Assembly: GCA_016866995.1 (NCBI GenBank)
Contig: VGKQ01000010.1
Coordinates: 1-35,057 of the forward strand
DNA from: Candidatus Pacearchaeota archaeon
GTDB taxonomy: Archaea; Nanobdellota; Nanobdellia; Pacearchaeales; GW2011-AR1
Direction: 5' to 3'
Length of the DNA: 35,057 bases
Shown piece by piece: positions 17,011-33,341 of this stretch. The position numbers and the translations under genes were made by a program. Position 1 is the first letter of the stretch, and the number at the start of each line of letters is the position of its first letter. The notes under the pieces are model-generated. The model was not told where the DNA came from, ran no database searches, and was given only the letters and a program-made list of their open reading frames with translations.

Positions 17011-18507
17011 TTACCCCTCCTCTGACAGCTCCTTTAATGTCTTCTCATCCTCATTTGTACCCTCGCCTTCTACACAATATTTAGTTTGGCTTGCATAAAC
17101 AGATATTTCATATTCTTGTTCTCCCTTAAATTTTCCAGTGCAGTAAATTTTATAATCAACTTTTGCATTAATTGAATTATAAATAAGTATTATAAACGGC
17201 TCACCAAGCGTAACTTTAGATTCTGTCCTTACGCTGCATTCAGCAGGGCATGTTTTTTGTATTTGTGGATCTGCCCTGAATTCTGCAACTTTTTCACTCA
17301 TTTTTGCATTAACATCTGCTAATAGTTTGGCTCTTGCTTCAGATAGTGAATAGCAATTTCCACTTGAAGCTTCAAAGCTTCCTGTTTTAATTCCAGAACA
17401 CTCTTTTTCCTGCCCTGTGTTTTTAGGAGTGCAAGTCACTTTATTATCTGATTTTGCTGAGAAATCAGTATGACATACTGTTCCTGACGGAGCAGATGCA
17501 GGAGGACATTTATAATCTGGAGGATATTTGCATTTCAGAAACTCTATCCTTTGTGGGTCTTTGTCTGCTTCTTTCTTTTTTTCCAGATATAATGCATTAT
17601 TTTTTGCATCAAATGGATTTCCAGTTATTGTAAATGTTATAGTCTTACTAAAAGTCCCAAAACCATAACATGAAGATGGCGGGACACACTCCCCATTCTT
17701 GCATATTCCGTCAAGAATTTTATCTTTGCCAAACCATCCTCCACTTTTAATATACTTGCATGGCTTTCCATCCTTGCTCTTGTCAGGGACAATTCCTCCA
17801 AAACCATCACACATTTTGCACTCAGAAGAATCTCCTACTTTTTTCTGCTGAACAGCAGTTCCTCTTGCTTTTGGCTCTACATAACAGCTTTCTTCAGACG
17901 ATGCAAACCCTGATATGGCTGCTCCTGTATAATAATTTTCAGAAGAATAGCCATAACCACAAATATATCTGTATCTGTATTTCCACTCGGGCTGTCCATA
18001 TCCATATCCGCATTCGTAATTACTATAACCCCAAAACCAAGAATAAGAGCCATATCCGCACCCATAATCATAACCATAACTATATCCATAGCCGCATGAA
18101 TAGCCATAATCATCAGAAGAATATCCAGAGTTTGAATCATAGTCAGAACTGTATCCAGAAGAATAACCATAAGAGTAGCCAGTATTATCACCATATCCAG
18201 AGTCATATCCACAACTTGAATCTGGTTCACATCTTGAAATTTCAGTGCAATCAGCAGTATCGCCATAAGTTATATCTCGTGTCTGCTGCCTCTCTGCACT
18301 TGAGCAACTTCCTCCACAACTCCCAGAACTCCAATCAGAATACTCACATCCATAGCCATGTTCATATCCATAACATTCACATATTTCACAAACCCCATAA
18401 GGCTGCCCCCCGCAATCCCCATAACCATAACTCTGAGAACTGACAGAAAAAGTAATTAATCCTATAATAAGCAACGAGCAAAAAATTAATATAACCTCAA
18501 TTTTCAT
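17011..18507 (-). CDS. Secreted Gly/Tyr/Ser/Cys-rich low-complexity protein, unknown
   Basis: Signal peptide, then (S)GYGYS/YGYGC-type repeats, then a Cys-rich globular region. Confidence 0.82.
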   Translation of the reverse strand: MKIEVILIFCSLLIIGLITFSVSSQSYGYGDCGGQPYGVCEICECYGYEHGYGCEYSDWSSGSCGGSCSSAERQQTRDITYGDTADCTEISRCEPDSSCGYDSGYGDNTGYSYGYSSGYSSDYDSNSGYSSDDYGYSCGYGYSYGYDYGCGYGSYSWFWGYSNYECGYGYGQPEWKYRYRYICGYGYSSENYYTGAAISGFASSEESCYVEPKARGTAVQQKKVGDSSECKMCDGFGGIVPDKSKDGKPCKYIKSGGWFGKDKILDGICKNGECVPPSSCYGFGTFSKTITFTITGNPFDAKNNALYLEKKKEADKDPQRIEFLKCKYPPDYKCPPASAPSGTVCHTDFSAKSDNKVTCTPKNTGQEKECSGIKTGSFEASSGNCYSLSEARAKLLADVNAKMSEKVAEFRADPQIQKTCPAECSVRTESKVTLGEPFIILIYNSINAKVDYKIYCTGKFKGEQEYEISVYASQTKYCVEGEGTNEDEKTLKELSEEG

Positions 18508-23425: not shown

Positions 23426-24724
23426 ATGCCATATAACATAATTATTGGAAGAGATGATTCAGACAAAAAAAGATTTGGTGACAAAGGACTAGTTTTTCTT
23501 GGAAAAGGTTATGTAAAAATGGGGCAATATACCTCATTAAGCAATCCAATTTTTCTTGATATAGCAAGAACTCATGTAATTCTTGTTGCAGGAAAAAGGG
23601 GAAGTGGAAAATCATACAGCCTCGGAACAATTGCAGAAGAGCTCTCAACTCTCAAGCCAGAAGAAAGAAAAAATATTGCAAGCTTGATTTTTGATACAAT
23701 GGGTGTTTTCTGGACAATGAAATTCAAGAACGAGAAGGAAAAAGAGCTTCTTTCTGAGTGGGGATTGAAGCCGAAAAATATCCCTGTCCGTGTTTTTGTC
23801 CCTTATGGATATTTTTCAGAATTTGAAAAAAGAGGAATTCCTGCTGATTTCAAATTTTCAATTAATCCTGCCGAGCTTGAAGCAGAAGACTGGATTACAA
23901 CCTTTAATTTAGATATTATACATCCTGTCTCTGTGCTGATAGAAAGAGTAATCTCAAGATTAAAGGAAAGGGGGGAATTCTCAATCAAAAATATAATTGA
24001 AGAAATAAACAAAGACAATTCAGCAGAAGAAATAAAAAATTCTGCTGCAAGTTTGTTTGAAGCAGCTGAAACCTGGAAGGTTTTCTCGTCAGAAAGCTCA
24101 AAAATTTCAGAGCTTGTGAAAGCAGGAGAGACAACAATTCTTGACTTGTCAATGTATTCATCAATAGGGGCATTTAATGTCCGAGCCCTTGTAATTGGCT
24201 TGATATCAAGAAAATTATTTAATTCAAGAGTTTTAGCAAGAAAAAACGAGGAATTGCAGGCAGTCCAGCACGGGATTGATTATCTTTCTTTCAAGCAGGA
24301 GAGAGAAATGCCTCTTGTCTGGCTTTTTATTGATGAGGTTCATGAATTCATAGGAAACGAAGGGAAAACACCTGCAACAGATGCTCTAATCCAATTATTA
24401 AGAGAAGGACGACAGCCCGGATTATCTTTAGTAATGGCAACACAGCAGCCAGGAGCATTGCACAGAGATGCAATAACACAATCAGATATTGTAATTTCTC
24501 ACAGGGTTACAGCCGAGCCAGATATTAAAGCTTTAAATGAGATGATGCAGTCATATCTCTTCGAGAGTATAAAGAAACATATGGATGACTTGCCTAATCT
24601 GAAAGGAAGCGCAATAATTCTAGATGATAACAGCGAAAGAATATATCCAATGCGAATACGCCCGAAATTCACCTGGCACGGAGGAGAGGCTCCAACTGCG
24701 ATAAAAATTGAAAAGAGAATTTAG
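23426..24724 (+). CDS. HerA-like/DUF87 ATPase
   Basis: Walker A AGKRGSGKSYSLG, Walker B LVWLFIDEVHEF, LLREGRQPGLSLVMATQQPGALH. Confidence 0.9.
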   Translation: MPYNIIIGRDDSDKKRFGDKGLVFLGKGYVKMGQYTSLSNPIFLDIARTHVILVAGKRGSGKSYSLGTIAEELSTLKPEERKNIASLIFDTMGVFWTMKFKNEKEKELLSEWGLKPKNIPVRVFVPYGYFSEFEKRGIPADFKFSINPAELEAEDWITTFNLDIIHPVSVLIERVISRLKERGEFSIKNIIEEINKDNSAEEIKNSAASLFEAAETWKVFSSESSKISELVKAGETTILDLSMYSSIGAFNVRALVIGLISRKLFNSRVLARKNEELQAVQHGIDYLSFKQEREMPLVWLFIDEVHEFIGNEGKTPATDALIQLLREGRQPGLSLVMATQQPGALHRDAITQSDIVISHRVTAEPDIKALNEMMQSYLFESIKKHMDDLPNLKGSAIILDDNSERIYPMRIRPKFTWHGGEAPTAIKIEKRI

Positions 24725-25133: not shown

Positions 25134-25559
25134 ATGCCAGACAGAAAATATGGCAATGTAGGGGAAAGAGATAAATTAGAAATTCTTCTCGCAGATACAA
25201 TACAGGCAACTCTTGCAAGGTTATATCCCGAATTAGCTGATTCTCCAGAATTCAGAAGATACGCGACAGATGAAAGAATAAGAAATATGAATCTGCCTAA
25301 AATGTATCATAATTCACCTTCTGGAAAAGAGATTGAATTGCCAAAATGTGAGCAAAGAAGGATAAGAATAATCAGAGATTGTGTAGATGCTATTGAAATA
25401 GAGCTTAAAAGAATATATGACAGAGAAATAAGATTACTAGAGCCAAACGAGCACGAAATAGATTTGACACCAAAAATAAATGATTTTAAAGAACTTGCTG
25501 ATTATATTGAAGAAGAAATTCTTGAAGCTGTTAAAAGAGAGCACCTCGTTGCTTGTTAA
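25134..25559 (+). CDS. Unknown protein, possible divergent ACP-like paralogue of the next gene
   Basis: 141-aa ORF. Its C-terminal half RDCVDAIEIELKRIYDREI...INDFKELADYIEEEI resembles FDSLDIVDLQMQLEDRFDIKI...YGTVGDLAAYIYRRL of the neighbour. Confidence 0.7.
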   Translation: MPDRKYGNVGERDKLEILLADTIQATLARLYPELADSPEFRRYATDERIRNMNLPKMYHNSPSGKEIELPKCEQRRIRIIRDCVDAIEIELKRIYDREIRLLEPNEHEIDLTPKINDFKELADYIEEEILEAVKREHLVAC

Positions 25560-25579
25560 TAAATAAAAATAAAATAAAA

Positions 25580-25903
25580 ATGCCAGCCATAACACAAGAA
25601 CAAATACAACAGGAAGTTTATGATTGCATCAAGAAGGTTGCAGAAAGAACAGAAGCAAGTCCAGAATTTAAATTCTCACTTGATACAAGCTTAGAAGAAT
25701 TGCCTTTTGATTCTCTTGACATAGTTGATTTGCAAATGCAATTAGAAGATAGATTTGACATAAAAATTCCTGACAAAAGCATGAAAAGATTATATCCTCT
25801 TAAAATAGATATTGTAATGCAACAAGAAAAATTAAGATATGGAACAGTAGGAGATTTAGCAGCCTATATTTACAGAAGATTATCTCAAACAAAAGCAGCT
25901 TAG
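25580..25903 (+). CDS. Acyl carrier protein-like (phosphopantetheine attachment motif)
   Basis: LPFDSLDIVDLQMQLEDRFDIKIPD (DSL motif) and YGTVGDLAAYIYRRL. Start moved to MPAITQEQ. Confidence 0.82.
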   Translation: MPAITQEQIQQEVYDCIKKVAERTEASPEFKFSLDTSLEELPFDSLDIVDLQMQLEDRFDIKIPDKSMKRLYPLKIDIVMQQEKLRYGTVGDLAAYIYRRLSQTKAA

Positions 25904-26096: not shown

Positions 26097-26873
26097 TTAA
26101 TTCACAATAAATCTAACAAGCCATCTGTATTTGTAAGGTGCAATATCTCCTGCTTTTCTGAACTCAAGAATTTTTATTTTCTTTTTTCCTTGTGCCTCTG
26201 TCTCAATTTTTTCCAGTATCAAATCAGCATCTTTTCCAAAATCATAATAAAAAATTTCTGTATTTTTCTTGGTGAATTTCCAGATATATTTCAGAAAAGT
26301 TTCTCTAAGCTGGGGGCGAGGCATGATTATAAAATCAAACTTTCCCTCAAGTTTCAATTTTTTAACATCTTTCTGGATTATCTCAACATTTTCAAGCTTG
26401 TTCAGCTTGACATTTTCAAAAGCATATTCTGAAGCTTTCCTGTTAATCTCAACAGAATAAATCTCAGCTTTCTTTCCTTCCTGCTTCAATTTTCTCGCAA
26501 TTATTATTGAAAAAGGCGCAACTCCTGCAAACAAAACCAAAATTCTCGAATTATTCTTTGATTTTTCTGCAATATAATCAGCTACTCTTGCTCTCTCTCC
26601 AGACAATCTTGAAGAAAAATAAGTTTCATCAACATTTAACTTGAATCTTGCTCCTGATTCAGTATAAATTGTCTCCCGAGTATTCTTGCCAGCAATAAAT
26701 CTAGTCTTAGATATTCTTAATCTTCCCTTAACCCTATCTGCTTTCTCCAAAATTGTTTTTATGTTCTTGTGTTCTTTAAGCAATTTTAAAGCTTCTTTTT
26801 TCTTTTCTTTCAGGTTAGTTTTCTCAGGAAATTTCAGAATTGCAATATCCCCAATTATATCATAAGTTGCCAT
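26097..26873 (-). CDS. Trm5-like class I tRNA (m1G37) methyltransferase
   Basis: RFIAGKNTRETIYTESGARFKLNVDETYFSSRLSGER, LFAGVAPFSIIIA, SVEINRKASEYAFENVKLN. Confidence 0.87.
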   Translation of the reverse strand: MATYDIIGDIAILKFPEKTNLKEKKKEALKLLKEHKNIKTILEKADRVKGRLRISKTRFIAGKNTRETIYTESGARFKLNVDETYFSSRLSGERARVADYIAEKSKNNSRILVLFAGVAPFSIIIARKLKQEGKKAEIYSVEINRKASEYAFENVKLNKLENVEIIQKDVKKLKLEGKFDFIIMPRPQLRETFLKYIWKFTKKNTEIFYYDFGKDADLILEKIETEAQGKKKIKILEFRKAGDIAPYKYRWLVRFIVN

Positions 26874-27064
26874 GATTAATTAAAATAATGTATATTTAAA
26901 ATTGTTTGGTATTTGATTATAATATAATTAAATGACTTGATTAATAAAAACAATAAATAACACACAATAACCCATGACAAATATAAGCTAATATAAACTA
27001 TAAATATTTAAGAAAGAAATATTTATAAATCACAATTAACTAAAAATATCATAAAAAGGTGAAA

Positions 27065-27325
27065 ATGAATAAGCTTGTTGGTTATATTATAGCATTGATT
27101 GGATTAATAGTTGCAGCTGCAAGTGTAAATCTTGCCAAGCTAGGAATTACTCTTCCTTCATCAATTAAATCAGTTTATATCATGATTCTTGGAATTGCCT
27201 TGATAATTCTTGGCTTGACTCTTGCTCTTGGAGGGAAACAAGAAGTAAAACAAGCCACAGAAGAAGTTCCAATATATGAGGGAACAGGCAAAAAAAGAAA
27301 AATTGTCGGATACAGAAAAGATTAA
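27065..27325 (+). CDS. Small 2-TM membrane protein, unknown
   Basis: MNKLVGYIIALIGLIVAAA.. then TM2 and a charged tail. AAGGTG SD-like sequence upstream. Confidence 0.75.
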   Translation: MNKLVGYIIALIGLIVAAASVNLAKLGITLPSSIKSVYIMILGIALIILGLTLALGGKQEVKQATEEVPIYEGTGKKRKIVGYRKD

Positions 27326-27539: not shown

Positions 27540-28358
27540 TTAAATTCCAGATTTAACTATCTCCTTAATCCTTCTCTTGCACTGCTTGATTATGCCTCTT
27601 GCTCTTTTCCTATCTTCCTCGCTCGCATGAGGATTTGCAAGCATATCCTCTGCCCTGAACATCTCTGTTCTAATCTGATTTATAGCAGCATCTCCTGCAT
27701 ATCCTTTTCCTGCCTTCATCAGAAAATGATAAATATATTCTGCATGAATTGCCTTGTCAAACATCAAAAATATCAAGGATATTATTGCAACAGCAAAATA
27801 AATCCATGCTATGTTTCCAAGTTCTCCCATTCTCATAACCCATAACCCAAAAAATATGCAGATAAAAACAATCCACCCTATTTTTCTTATAACATGAGAG
27901 TCAAAACTTTCTATAAAGAAGAAATATAAAATTAATGGAAGAATAGAAGCCACAGCAACCCCATAAATCTCATAAGGCACAAGAACAGCTCTAAATAAAT
28001 CTATGTCAGAGAAAAATCTGGTTGCAAGAAGCGAAACAGACAATGTAATAATCCAGACAACTGATTTATTCTTGGCAATAGGAGGAATTCTTGACACAGC
28101 AATATAAATAAATGAAATTAGCACAAGCAATAAAGCCATTTTCTCGAGAAGATATCCTGGCCCGAACAAAGCTTCAAGATACGGGCCGAACACAACCTGA
28201 AACCACGAGATTGAATCATAAATCATCTGCTCGCCAGAAGAAAGAGGAGCTCCTCCACCTCCAAATCCTCCTCCCCACCACCCCCATCCATCATAAGCAG
28301 AAACAAAACTCAAGTTAATAATAAATAAAAATGCAAGAATAATCCATCTTTTTTTCAT
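27540..28358 (-). CDS. Multi-TM membrane protein family A with cytoplasmic charged tail, unknown
   Basis: Signal-like N-terminus, several TMs, SLLATRFFSD, FFFIESFDSHVIRKIGWIVFI, basic C-terminus. Paralogous to 28625-29443. Confidence 0.85.
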   Translation of the reverse strand: MKKRWIILAFLFIINLSFVSAYDGWGWWGGGFGGGGAPLSSGEQMIYDSISWFQVVFGPYLEALFGPGYLLEKMALLLVLISFIYIAVSRIPPIAKNKSVVWIITLSVSLLATRFFSDIDLFRAVLVPYEIYGVAVASILPLILYFFFIESFDSHVIRKIGWIVFICIFFGLWVMRMGELGNIAWIYFAVAIISLIFLMFDKAIHAEYIYHFLMKAGKGYAGDAAINQIRTEMFRAEDMLANPHASEEDRKRARGIIKQCKRRIKEIVKSGI

Positions 28359-28624
28359 TTTATTTTCCTTGTTTTGCTTCTTTATTAAAAGAAGAGGTAT
28401 TTATAAATATTTGTGAAAATTTCAGAATTAGTTTGAATTATTTTATTTTAAACTTGATTATTCTCAATTATCTGCTCTTTAACTTAGTTATTGTCTGTTA
28501 TTTGTTAGAATTATTTATTGATAATTATTGCCAGTTATTTTTTAATTAAAATTTAAGCTGAATTAATTTATCTCCCCAAGTTTATAGCTCTCGCACACAA
28601 AAAACTAAGATAAAAAATAAAAAA

Positions 28625-29437
28625 TTACTCACTGGCAAGTTCTGCTATCTGTTTTCTGATTTTCTTTGCTTCATCTTTTGCGGTATTTCTTTGAGCGTCA
28701 GTCAAAGCTAAATTATGGGCTGCTTTTTCATATTCTCTTAAATCTTCTGTAAATCTGCTCATCTGAAGAATATTTCTCTTGGAGGTTTTTCCCTTTAATT
28801 CTGCCAGCATCATCCACGCCCTAATATTCTTGTCAAATACTAGAACAAGAATTGATATAACACCAATAGCCATATACCACCAAGCAAGAGTATTCCACCA
28901 CTCTCCTCCTTTTGGTGCCAAATCATACCATCTGTAAATAGCCATGGCAAAATATATTACTATAAATATAACCCACCCAACTCTCGTAATAATAAAATTA
29001 TCTATTTTATTGATTAAAAAGAAAAATAATACAAAAGGAAAAAGAGTGGCAAAAGCCATCCCTGCTGTTCCAGAAGGCAGCCATATAAAAGTAATTAATT
29101 CAGGAGTTGCTAAAAATCTTGTCGCAAGCAATGCTATAACTACAGAAATAAGCAACATAAAAAATGTGCTGTCTTTTAATCCAGGAGTAAACCCAGCAGC
29201 ATAATAAGCAACCCCAAAAATTAATATCAAGAATAAAACCTTGACAAACAGCAAGTCAATTGTCTTAGCAGGCCCTACAATAAATTGTGCAATAGGATTT
29301 ACAACCTCTGCAATTTTGTTCAAAGCATTCTGAACATCAGAATTAACAGCAAGTTCTTCCTGAGCAAGAACAAAACTTGAAACTAAAATTAATGCCAAAA
29401 TTGATGTAACAAAAATTGCCACCTTTTTCTTATTCAT
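28625..29437 (-). CDS. Multi-TM membrane protein family A, unknown
   Basis: IALLATRFLATPEL, FFFLINKIDNFIITRVGWVIFI, VLVFDKNIRAW and charged tail. Start taken at second Met (MNKKK). Confidence 0.85.
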   Translation of the reverse strand: MNKKKVAIFVTSILALILVSSFVLAQEELAVNSDVQNALNKIAEVVNPIAQFIVGPAKTIDLLFVKVLFLILIFGVAYYAAGFTPGLKDSTFFMLLISVVIALLATRFLATPELITFIWLPSGTAGMAFATLFPFVLFFFLINKIDNFIITRVGWVIFIVIYFAMAIYRWYDLAPKGGEWWNTLAWWYMAIGVISILVLVFDKNIRAWMMLAELKGKTSKRNILQMSRFTEDLREYEKAAHNLALTDAQRNTAKDEAKKIRKQIAELASE

Positions 29438-29800
29438 AGTCAATCTATAATTTTGTCATTTATAAACCTTTCGCCGTTAAGTTGCCACTTTTCCCAGATA
29501 AAAATCAAAAATATTTTTTCAGAATAAAATTAAAAATTAATAGAATAATTATGAGATAAACTCTAAAAAATTATCTTTCTTTTAATATATATAATTTAGG
29601 TGTAGCAATAAAAAATTTTATGTTGAACTTAATAATTCATTCTTCTAATTTCTAAAAAGTTAATATGTGATTAATTTATATTATTTTATTATTCAAAGAA
29701 ATAATAAGATTTTTATCACTTCAAACAAGATAAAAATCTCAAATAGAAAAACAAAATATTTATAAAACCCCTTTGCATAGGAATATTAATTATATTATTG

Positions 29801-29809
29801 AAAGGAGGT
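29801..29809 (+). promoter_or_regulatory. Strong Shine-Dalgarno sequence
   Basis: AAAGGAGGT 7 nt before the ATG at 29816; TATA-like ATATTTATAAAA further upstream. Confidence 0.75.
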
Positions 29810-29815
29810 TAAAAA

Positions 29816-30412
29816 ATGAATTGGAAAAAATTAGGTGTTTACAGCGTTCTTCTTCTAATGCAAATAGGAAGTTTAATTATGGCTGTTTCTGCGCTAACTC
29901 CATTTAGTGCACCAGAATCAGAAAAATGGTTGACTGAAAGCCAGTTCTATGCAGTAATATCCCCTTATTTAGTACCTGATGGATTTGAAGGACTTGGTGG
30001 ATTGATTATTGGAATTGTAACATTAGTTATTATATTTTCAATATTCATGGATGTTATCTACTTAGCTACACCTTTTAGCAAACCTGTTGTATGGATAATG
30101 ACAATAGGTTTTGCCATAATTGCAATCTTTTCTAAGCTTAGTGTAATTGTCGCAGGGTGGATATTCGTGGTCGGCGCCACGGCTTTCGCATGGGCAGGAG
30201 CTCTAGCAGGATTGTTGACAATAGTTTTAGCAATATTAATATTATTCTTTATCTTCTTCACAGGCGAATGGATAAGAAAGTGGGTAGTCAATATAAGACT
30301 AAGAAGAAAAGGACTTGAAAAGCAAGAAGCAGCAATTGAAAAAGGACAAAATGTCGCAAGTGCTGTAAAAATGGCAGAAGCGATGACTGGTAAAAAAGTT
30401 AAAGTTCAATAA
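29816..30412 (+). CDS. Multi-TM membrane protein family B with charged tail, unknown
   Basis: Signal-like N-terminus, 3-4 TMs, PFSKPVVWIMTIGFA shared with 31574-32266, basic/coiled tail. Confidence 0.85.
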   Translation: MNWKKLGVYSVLLLMQIGSLIMAVSALTPFSAPESEKWLTESQFYAVISPYLVPDGFEGLGGLIIGIVTLVIIFSIFMDVIYLATPFSKPVVWIMTIGFAIIAIFSKLSVIVAGWIFVVGATAFAWAGALAGLLTIVLAILILFFIFFTGEWIRKWVVNIRLRRKGLEKQEAAIEKGQNVASAVKMAEAMTGKKVKVQ

Positions 30413-30450
30413 TTTTTTATTTTTTTACTTTTTCTTTTTTTATTATAAGT
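30412..30450 (+). terminator. Archaeal poly-T termination region
   Basis: TTTTTTATTTTTTTACTTTTTCTTTTTTTATT directly after the stop. Confidence 0.7.
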
Positions 30451-30483
30451 AATATTTATAAATCTCAAACAAATAATAAGAAT

Positions 30484-30561
30484 ATGAGAAAAGTAATATT
30501 AAACTTTTTGCTATCTGTTTTATATTTAAATCCTTCTGGAAAGGTTTATAAACTATTGTAA
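30484..30561 (+). CDS. Possible 25-aa hydrophobic peptide upstream of the MNT/HEPN operon
   Basis: MRKVILNFLLSVLYLNPSGKVYKLL*; TATA-like AATATTTATAAATC about 25 nt before the ATG. Confidence 0.35.
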   Translation: MRKVILNFLLSVLYLNPSGKVYKLL

Positions 30562-30614
30562 TGTTAAATTAACATAAGTAAAAATAAATTAACAATTGTA
30601 ATGTTAAATTAACA
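30555..30614 (+). promoter_or_regulatory. Duplicated palindromic operator-like sites before the wHTH-MNT gene
   Basis: ATTGTAATGTTAAATTAACA repeated exactly at 30555-30574 and 30595-30614; each contains the palindrome TGTTAA-A-TTAACA. Confidence 0.75.
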
Positions 30615-31139
30615 ATGAAGAATACAGATACAAAAGAGAAAATTCTGGAATTGCTGTTTGATTTTCCTACAGCAAGATTTCATGTAAGGGAAATCTCAAG
30701 AAAACTCAAAATTTCCGCACCAGCAGTTTCAAAAGCATTGAAAGAGCTTGAAAATCATGAATTAATTAAAATTGAAAAAAATTTTCTGTATGAAATAAAG
30801 GCAAATTCCGGCAATGATGATTTTAAAAACTTAAAAAGAGTGAGCAATCTTAAAAAAATTTATCTTTCTGGATTATCTCATTTTTTAAGCGAAAAATTTC
30901 CCCTGTCAACAATAATTTTGTTTGGGAGCTATTCAAGAGGTGAGGACATAGAAAACTCGGATATTGATATTGCTGTAATTGGCTCAAAAGAAAGGGAAAT
31001 AAGCTTGGAAAAATATGAAAAACTGGTTCAAAGAAAGATAAATCTTCAGTTTTATCCTAGCCTGAAAAATATAGAAATAAATTTAAAGAGTAATATTCTG
31101 AATGGAATAACACTAAAGGGGGGAATTGACTTATCTTGA
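30615..31139 (+). CDS. wHTH-nucleotidyltransferase (MNT-like) fusion
   Basis: wHTH FHVREISRKLKISAPAVSKALKELENHELI plus GSYSRGEDIENSDIDIAVIG. Confidence 0.9.
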   Translation: MKNTDTKEKILELLFDFPTARFHVREISRKLKISAPAVSKALKELENHELIKIEKNFLYEIKANSGNDDFKNLKRVSNLKKIYLSGLSHFLSEKFPLSTIILFGSYSRGEDIENSDIDIAVIGSKEREISLEKYEKLVQRKINLQFYPSLKNIEINLKSNILNGITLKGGIDLS

Positions 31140-31570
31140 AAAATTTCAGTGAATACTTAAAGGAAGGAATTGCAAGAAAAACACTGCCTGATAAAAAAAG
31201 AGCCAGCTCATTAATAGAAAATTCAGATAAAAGAAATTTTTTCTTTGAACAGATAATAAACGCAGTGGATATTACAGATGATAATGCTAATTATGTTATA
31301 GAGCAGGTTTATGATATTTTAATAGAATTAATACGGGCAAAAATAATTTTTGATGGCTATTATGCCTCTGGAAATTATGCTCACGAAGCAGAAGTTTCCT
31401 ATCTAAAAGAGCTTAATTTTACTGATTTTGAAATAAGCATGCTTGATGAAATAAGGAAGTTCAGAAACGGAGTTAAATATTACGGAAAGAGATATAATAA
31501 AAATGAGGCTGAAAGCTCCATTAGGTTTAAAAATTCTGTTATCAATAAATTAAAAGAGAAAATAAGATAA
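31136..31570 (+). CDS. HEPN-domain protein paired with the MNT gene
   Basis: LDEIRKFRNGVKYYGKRY HEPN-like motif; TTG start overlaps the MNT stop. Confidence 0.78.
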   Translation: MKNFSEYLKEGIARKTLPDKKRASSLIENSDKRNFFFEQIINAVDITDDNANYVIEQVYDILIELIRAKIIFDGYYASGNYAHEAEVSYLKELNFTDFEISMLDEIRKFRNGVKYYGKRYNKNEAESSIRFKNSVINKLKEKIR

Positions 31571-31573
31571 AAA

Positions 31574-32266
31574 ATGAGAAAAGAAGTGATATTAATTATA
31601 GCATTGTTGATTTCTGGAATTATATTTGCAAATCTTATCAAAGCGCAGGATATAGAAGATTTGCAGAATATGGAAAACCCGGCAGATGTTATAAAAAACA
31701 AAACAGGCGGAATAATAAGCGAGGAAGGGATTAACACAAGCGAGGAAGCGTGGCAGCCGTACAAGAGCAAGGCAGAAGAAAGAATCGAATGGATAAATGA
31801 AAAAATAGGATTTCTCAAGCCCTATCTAGATCCAATAACAAATTTTGTCTTAAAAGAAGAATTTGCAATATCTAAAATATTTTTCCTTGTTTTGGCAATA
31901 TTTATCCTTATATTAATTTATATCTTAAGATTAGCAGAACTCGCACTTCCATTCTCAAAATGGGTAAGTTGGGTTATATCGATAGCTTTTTCTCTTGTTT
32001 TAGGAATAACAGGCTCAATAAAAAAAATTGGCGAAGTCATTATTAAAATTGTGGAAATTTATCAGACATGGTGGGTTCAACTTATTATCTGGGCAGGAAT
32101 TATAGTTATTATTATAATTGCTATTTATTTGTCAAAATTTTTAAAGAAAATAAAAGAAAACCAAGTACAAGAAAACAAAAAATTTGAAGAAGAGCAAAAT
32201 TTGGAAAAATTAAAAGGAAATGTAGAAATCGCAGAAATATTTACAAAAGGAATAACTGAAGAATAG
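31574..32266 (+). CDS. Multi-TM membrane protein family B, unknown
   Basis: Signal-like N-terminus, 3 TMs, LPFSKWVSWVISIAFSL, charged C-terminal tail. Confidence 0.82.
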   Translation: MRKEVILIIALLISGIIFANLIKAQDIEDLQNMENPADVIKNKTGGIISEEGINTSEEAWQPYKSKAEERIEWINEKIGFLKPYLDPITNFVLKEEFAISKIFFLVLAIFILILIYILRLAELALPFSKWVSWVISIAFSLVLGITGSIKKIGEVIIKIVEIYQTWWVQLIIWAGIIVIIIIAIYLSKFLKKIKENQVQENKKFEEEQNLEKLKGNVEIAEIFTKGITEE

Positions 32267-32318: not shown

Positions 32319-33341
32319 TCAAAACAAAGTTTTCTGCTTCCTATTGTCCAAGGCAAGATTTAACTTGTCAAGAGCATTTGTAACTCGCTCTTCTGAAAAA
32401 TCATGTTCTATCACAAGAATTCTCTTGATTTTCTCCCTGTCTAATTTTGGAAAATTAATCTCGGGATTTTTTTCTATATCTGGATTTTTGAACAATGAAA
32501 AAATTTCCTGCCAGTCAAACTTGTTTTCCTGATTTTCAAGCAAATTTTCAACTGATTTGAAAATTTGCACAGGATATCTGTATTTTTTCACAATCTCAAG
32601 AGCTTTTCTCTGCCCAATCCCCTTGATTCCGCCAGGATTATAATCAGTCCCAACAAGTATGCCTAAACATATAAGTTGTTCAAGATTAATTCCAAGAACA
32701 TTTAAAACATGCTCCAATTCAATCATTTCAGGAGAAATATAAATATATCCAGAAACTGTTTTTCTTTTTCTTGAAAGTGTCAGGTTTTGTATCAATCTTG
32801 TAGCTCCAAATAATAATGAATCATAATCCTGCGAGCCAACAGCATATGCAGAGTGTTTTGCAATTTCAGATACATATACTTCTCACTCGCTTGGAGCCTG
32901 GACAACAGCAATTCCAAGAGCTTCAAGAAGTTTTTTTGAATCTTCAAGTATCTCGGGAGTTAGTCTAACAAATTGTCTCGCATACTTTCCCATTCCCTCT
33001 ATGTCTTCTTCATCTCTGGCTTGTTTGTATTTCTCTCTTGCTTCATCCTTAATTTCACTTCTTCTCATATTTGTCTTGAATTTTAATTCAGGAGGAACGC
33101 CGTCAAAAACATAAATCAACTTGACACCTTCCTGCATCAAGTTAATGTTTCTGTAAAATAATCCAGATAAATGGCTAGTTATTCGCTTCTTGCTATCCAT
33201 GAGTGGAGTTCCATCACTCTGCCTGATAGTAGAAAGAAACTGGTAAATAGTATTGTATGCATCTATTGCTATAGTTTTCCCTTTCAATTCAGAAAACTCA
33301 ACAACTTTTCTCGGAATTATTTCAGCTATGTTCAGTCCCAT
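32319..33341 (-). pseudogene. fen: Flap endonuclease 1, single frame interrupted by in-frame TGA at 32883-32885 (pseudogene, recoded, or sequence error)
   Basis: MGLNIAEIIPRKVVEF...FDGVPPELK...VVQAPSE[TGA]EVYVSEIAKHSAYAVGSQDYDSLLFGATRLIQNLTLSRKRK...GTDYNPGGIKGIGQRKAL. Frame open on both sides of the TGA. Confidence 0.9.

Follow-up and report, generated by a model that had tools for sequence, protein, structure and literature searches.

What are the four multi-transmembrane (TM) proteins that a Pacearchaeota genome encodes in a single cluster, and of what machine, if any, might they form part? DPANN archaea live on other archaea by way of poorly known contact machinery. The stretch of DNA analysed here (the window: contig G000:C10, 35,057 bases) comes from an uncultured member of the Pacearchaeota, a tiny archaeon with a probably symbiotic lifestyle, and the four genes in question, called P1 to P4, were all recovered at their coordinates when the open reading frames (ORFs) of the window were checked (Table 1). 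An earlier note on this DNA had taken them for two paralogous families. We find that they belong to a real superfamily which is undescribed in the libraries and literature searched, the archaeal pilus census being covered without its supplementary tables. It has a conserved place in the genome and, beside the pilus motor genes, a paralogous set that is nearly universal.

Relationships among P1 to P4

Relatives were taken exclusively from the phylum of the window, their ORFs being mechanical gene calls. By sequence, P1 and P2 are clear paralogs, 26% identical over 237 amino acids (aa; BLASTP, E 2e-21). Of the motifs that the earlier note had proposed for this pair, the segment FDKAI/FDKNI holds, but SLLATRF occurs in P1 only (P2 has ALLATRF) and the third F of 'FFF' is L in P2. 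Of the similarity proposed for P3 and P4, only LAxPFSKxVxW is common to both, which is insufficient alone: the pairwise alignment gives no significant match (E 0.8), so their kinship is not provable by eye and profiles were required. These were built from relatives with the tested protein removed (leave-one-out), and the controls were 200 block-shuffled copies, which roughly preserve the hydropathy profile, and 113 unrelated membrane proteins of the same loci. With the branch B profile, P3 scored 41.8 bits and P4 117.9 bits, against maxima of 22.0 and 22.7 bits for the shuffled copies (n=200) and 9.7 and 10.5 bits for the membrane proteins (n=113); P1 and P2 scored 208 and 197 bits with their own leave-one-out profiles. 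Judged by these scores P3 and P4 belong to one profile family, and the description of the genes as paralogous and clustered in a DPANN genome is borne out for both pairs.

The two pairs, branch A (P1 and P2) and branch B (P3 and P4), are probably related to each other as well. Profile-profile comparison links them over the signal peptide and TM1-2 (hhalign 97.4%, E 1.5e-11), and profile A ranks 27 of 45 B proteins above every membrane decoy; on single B sequences it gives 12.3 bits for P3 and 16.9 bits for P4. The 'two families' are therefore probably two branches of one superfamily, in which the A-B link is likely but is the weakest joint. Two further groups, C and D, are described below. Profile similarity above both shuffles and membrane decoys, together with a common TM1-TM2 hairpin topology, was found for A, B, C and D; the A-C, A-D and D-C links are clear, and the A-B link comes mainly from the profile-profile comparison. 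In a tree, a supported branch (95-99) sets off each of A, B and C.

A related gene triplet at the type IV pilus motor

Branch C is a tandem triplet of 5-TM proteins, usually in three copies, that was found in 189 of the 194 genomes sampled from the phylum, including that of the window, where it is found on contig C49 with a PRC-barrel-like gene as its neighbour. It is tied to branch A by profile-profile comparison (hhalign 97.5%, E 6e-12; 94.7% with a deeper C set), and the branch A profile ranks 53 of 57 C proteins above all 113 membrane decoys. The company kept by the triplet is nearly constant: in the complete loci inspected (n=18), two coiled-coil-like genes were present in 18, a T2SSE ATPase in 17 and TadC in 15, the last called from its TM pattern and position, whereas the ATPase and peptidase were identified separately. 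This gene set persists where the outer flanks change. Examples of the triplet beside T2SSE and TadC genes are at L154 (3309-4959) and L186-L204, and no Pfam family was found for it.

Association with T2SSE, TadC, pilins or the A24 peptidase is thus seen for C, and for A/B in five genomes, probably reflecting one event. In these five Pacearchaeota genomes (L063, L076, L087, L090, L096), the A/B cluster is 0.2-5.4 kb from a prepilin peptidase; three of the clusters are also accompanied by pilins, two by TadC and one (G041) also by the ATPase. In G002, C genes, ATPase, TadC, pilins, peptidase, A/B genes and HerA all occupy one stretch of ~20 kb (L138 and L076 overlap). Searches of Pfam, NCBIfam and PHROG revealed no homology of P1 to P4 to a named pilus component (ATPase, TadC/FlaJ or pilin); their homology extends only to the C triplet, which is itself unnamed.

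In four genomes (G020:C16, G021:C74, G022:C35 and G026:C18) we also observed T2SSE ATPases with frames of ~1000 aa, in which the family match falls in two parts, as though a large insert, perhaps an intein, were present mid-protein.

A conserved slot between TRM5 and FEN1

HerA served as the anchor for collecting loci with the slot (58 matches in named genomes, mostly 'Candidatus Pacearchaeota' or 'Nanoarchaeota'). In relatives the gene order is RFC-RFC-DsbA-HerA-TRM5-[cluster]-FEN1, the cluster consisting of one to five diverging A/B genes on mixed strands. The co-occurrence across DPANN genomes that the earlier note had suggested examining was confirmed, genes of both branches being present in 14 of 19 complete loci, and a small 2-TM protein with the motif PIYEG...GYR accompanies the cluster in most relatives (a homolog at 17 loci). 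P1 to P4 diverge much faster than their neighbours: their median identity to the best relatives is 25-30%, against 48-75% for RFC, HerA, FEN1 and TRM5 at the same loci, P3 being 48% identical to its ortholog in G021.

Among the 29 named loci holding both HerA and FEN1, eight contain A/B genes. In the other 21, the TRM5-FEN1 interval mostly still holds a protein with 4-8 predicted TM helices; these D proteins match A at 97.8% and C at 97.3% in profile comparison. Three loci from other families of the class each have a single homolog of 418-517 aa in the interval (L130, L143, L144). Because a single divergent homolog with 5-6 TM helices occupies the slot in most complete loci where the cluster is absent, we infer that the A/B cluster is a lineage-specific expansion, in some Pacearchaeota, of a gene resident there; in the simplest history, an old single gene would have been amplified into the A/B array. 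Independent gene recruitment, as which the expansion could be read from the earlier note, thereby gives way to amplification at the slot, since most genomes without the cluster hold one divergent homolog at that position.

Where a HerA-family gene was found, its distance from the A/B cluster is nearly always ~1.3-4.5 kb, in two arrangements in Pacearchaeota. In other orders, 6 of 15 genomes have one of three different HerA paralogs (~440, 512 and 653 aa) within 4 kb of a family gene, although each genome holds only one to seven such genes. The ATPase of the window is closest to HerA/DUF87, not VirB4. This recurrence supports a possible partnership with a motor ATPase or DNA transfer of the Ced/Ted kind; conserved housekeeping synteny accounts for part of the proximity.

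Long homologs in other orders carry helical tails of 200-300 aa and adjoin helical proteins (L129, L131, L134, L142). An SPFH/Band 7 gene (L128, 7241-8248, minus strand, 5e-22) directly adjoins two long family members. Two other members adjoin a gene (L132, 8634-9479, minus strand) for a membrane-anchored protein with a Walker-A-like motif, GKRGSGKS, possibly a Zot/HerA-like ATPase.

Predicted topology and structure

The predicted topology common to P1 to P4 begins with a signal peptide and an outer amphipathic helix, continues with a TM1-TM2 hairpin whose inner loop is basic and one or three more TM helices, and ends in a basic cytoplasmic tail. By hydropathy and charge, both branches open with a signal-like start and an outer segment, followed in A by five TM helices and a basic inner tail of 70 residues and in B by three TM helices and a charged tail; the signal-like start, TM bundle and charged cytoplasmic tail that had been proposed for all four proteins are thereby supported. 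This architecture, a Sec-like start followed by five (A) or three (B) further TM helices, ruled out a type IV pilin or class III signal peptide protein, in which one N-terminal hydrophobic helix carries a prepilin peptidase site, as a candidate identity.

Structures were modelled for P1, representing branch A, and for one branch C protein from the genome of the window. The P1 model (AlphaFold 2, AF2) is fairly confident, with a mean predicted local distance difference test score (pLDDT) of 84.7 and a predicted template modelling score of 0.63, and has five TM helices between a helix on the outer side and a helical tail; that of the C protein has two short N-terminal helices followed by five long ones (pLDDT 82.2). 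The P1 model has no match at E 0.001 in Foldseek searches of the PDB and viral models, and the C model none in the PDB. P1 to P4 match no family in Pfam, NCBIfam or PHROG, 51 branch A members give no consistent Pfam family, and profile searches of the PDB returned TM matches at chance level only. NuoJ, which appeared as a relative of branch C (PDB profile, E 0.003), was rejected as compositional because Foldseek gave it no support. The absence of a recognisable known family thus holds across these libraries, and neither profiles nor Foldseek gave the clear match to a characterised transporter or pilus family that would have contradicted the earlier note.

Candidate functions

That A, B and C are unrelated TM proteins made alike by hydrophobicity seems very unlikely. 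The similarity is indeed concentrated in TM segments, and at the level of single sequences the A-B link is weak, as the bit scores of P3 and P4 with profile A illustrate, but the leave-one-out, block-shuffle and membrane-decoy controls, the supported branches of the tree and the positional orthology at the slot all speak against coincidence. As for function, the best single reading, plausible though short of probable, is that P1 to P4 make up the membrane base of an envelope machine that resembles a type IV pilus and is driven by an ATPase. As paralogous subunits of one membrane complex, they would assemble together into a membrane-embedded base, whether a channel, a platform or a stator-like ring, whose cytoplasmic tails would dock a motor ATPase; the machine would be pilus- or secretion-like, and the fast divergence of its subunits may reflect contact with the host cell. 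Because the C triplet, which comprises their closest relatives outside the cluster, stands beside the pilus motor in nearly every genome of the class, P1 to P4 may likewise belong to a cell-surface machine. A broader proposal, about which we are doubtful, is that the superfamily provides the base of pilus and translocation machines in Nanoarchaeia, with the near-universal three-paralog set serving the pilus motor and the fast-diverging P1-P4 set a host-contact or translocation machine. The surface or secretion complex of the earlier note gains indirect support from the distant homology to the triplet at T2SSE/TadC and from the five genomes with the cluster near a peptidase or pilins, but most A/B loci are elsewhere. 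Several further points count against a pilus-like base. The tie between B and A is confined to TM1-2, a direct one between B and C is hardly visible (no more than 2 of the 57 C proteins exceed the decoys, and no direct B-C profile similarity was detected), and C members are without a signal peptide. The A/B locus, in the window as in most genomes, lies between housekeeping genes and away from the pilus locus, and because long-range gene order is conserved in the class, adjacency carries little weight. The five clusters close to pilus genes probably go back to a single ancestral rearrangement and so count little statistically; even if they were independent, the chance of 5 in 33 would be ~0.035 at an assumed background of 5.6%.

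Two other functions have to be set against a pilus-like base. The Ced/Ted DNA-import machines (CedA/TedA, CedA1/TedC, CedB/TedB; PMC9905601, PMC11868833) resemble the locus in their 5-7 TM channel paralogs, a 2-TM partner, a HerA/VirB4-type ATPase nearby and extreme divergence. In a transfer machine of this type, a simplified type IV secretion system, A would be a VirB6/CedA-like channel, the 2-TM protein a CedA1-like pilin, HerA a CedB-like motor, and a nearby OB-fold protein would handle DNA. We regard this as unlikely. The proximity of HerA to the A/B cluster and, in other orders, of its three paralogs to family genes is in its favour, as is the signal plus TM hairpin with a basic inner loop and five TM helices, which resembles TedC/CedA (PMC9905601, PMC11868833). 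Yet the multi-TM proteins here themselves bear the signal peptide, there is no detectable sequence or fold match to Ced/Ted, no VirB2, VirB6 or CedA1 structure was matched by profile or Foldseek, and no TrbL/VirB6 (PF04610) was found in the genome of the window. Nor was a VirB4-type ATPase seen at the locus, where the ATPase resembles HerA; the nearest homologs accompany a T2SSE motor instead, and the HerA-TRM5-slot-FEN1 order may simply be conserved housekeeping synteny. That the family stands alone, with no tie to pili, and shapes membranes, acts as a scaffold or forms a channel for small solutes, its tails binding coiled-coil or SPFH-type scaffolds, is a possibility we hold with some doubt: long-tailed homologs do lie beside helical proteins, one pair adjoins the SPFH/Band 7 gene and, HerA aside, most A/B/D loci are without machine genes, but this would leave unexplained why the homologous C triplet keeps so closely to the pilus motor.

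Archaeal type IV pili are composed of a T2SSE ATPase, TadC/FlaJ, class III pilins and an A24 prepilin peptidase (PMC4858521). Branch C fits this setting in that it is encoded with the motor in nearly all loci inspected, and A/B in that it adjoins peptidase or pilins in five genomes. Unlike these proteins, the systems described there comprise ATPase, platform, pilins and few lineage-specific membrane proteins, and the passages compared name no paralogous family of signal-peptide multi-TM proteins such as this one, the supplementary arCOG lists being outside the comparison (PMC4858521). The surface and pilus 'dark matter' islands of DPANN genomes are similar in having fast-evolving signal-peptide proteins of no assigned function near FlaI/TadC genes (PMC6393860), but those were interpreted as pilins, whereas P1 to P4 are multi-TM proteins with cytoplasmic tails. 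A near-universal multi-TM family at the pilus motor, with no named relative or fold in the libraries searched, offers concrete genes for studies of attachment and transfer, the C triplet being a good target by itself, and many of the 'hypothetical membrane proteins' in these genomes would be united in one family with a defined ancestral slot.

Neighbouring genes

Table 1. Genes of the P1-P4 locus and its flanks, with window coordinates and the basis of each assignment
Feature	Position	Strand	Basis
P1, branch A: signal peptide, outer amphipathic helix, 5 TM, basic cytoplasmic tail	27540..28358	-	paralog alignment, profiles, hydropathy/charge, AF2
P2, branch A, paralog of P1 with identical topology	28625..29443	-	alignment, profiles, hydropathy/charge
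P3, branch B: signal peptide, 3 TM, basic tail	29816..30412	+	profiles, hydropathy/charge
P4, branch B: signal peptide, long charged outer segment, 3 TM, charged tail	31574..32266	+	profiles, hydropathy/charge
Small 2-TM protein, conserved C-terminal motif (V)PIYEG...GYR	27059..27325	+	homologs in 17 loci
TRM5/TYW2-type methyltransferase, conserved left flank of slot	26097..26873	-	family match, synteny
FEN1 nuclease, conserved right flank of slot, one in-frame TGA	32319..33341	-	ORFs, synteny
HerA-family ATPase, 432 aa, conserved slot neighbour	23426..24724	+	family match, synteny
Winged-helix and minimal nucleotidyltransferase (MNT) protein, within cluster	30615..31139	+	NTP_transf_2 5.8e-11; HTH_24 7.5e-7
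HEPN/HepT-like partner of MNT gene, weak match	31136..31570	+	HepT-like_2 E 0.025

The MNT and HepT-like genes probably represent an inserted toxin-antitoxin-like pair that stands outside the proposed P1-P4 complex. The pair is also found inside the locus in L072, and MNT genes recur within or adjoining the A/B locus in the relatives L072, L081, L093 and L245.

The FEN1 gene is split by the stop at 32883-32885, at a conserved acidic motif, its halves being otherwise intact and in one frame. Since nine other genes of the window end in TGA, a sequencing error, a broken copy and a true split of FEN1 are indistinguishable. An acyl-carrier-protein-like gene (25553-25903, plus strand; PP-binding, E 1.2e-8), unusual for an archaeon, overlaps with its start the end of a 141-aa gene of no known function. 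Elsewhere in the window (17011-18507, minus strand), a secreted protein of 498 aa is encoded, which has a very high content of Tyr, Gly, Ser and Cys and no Pfam match.

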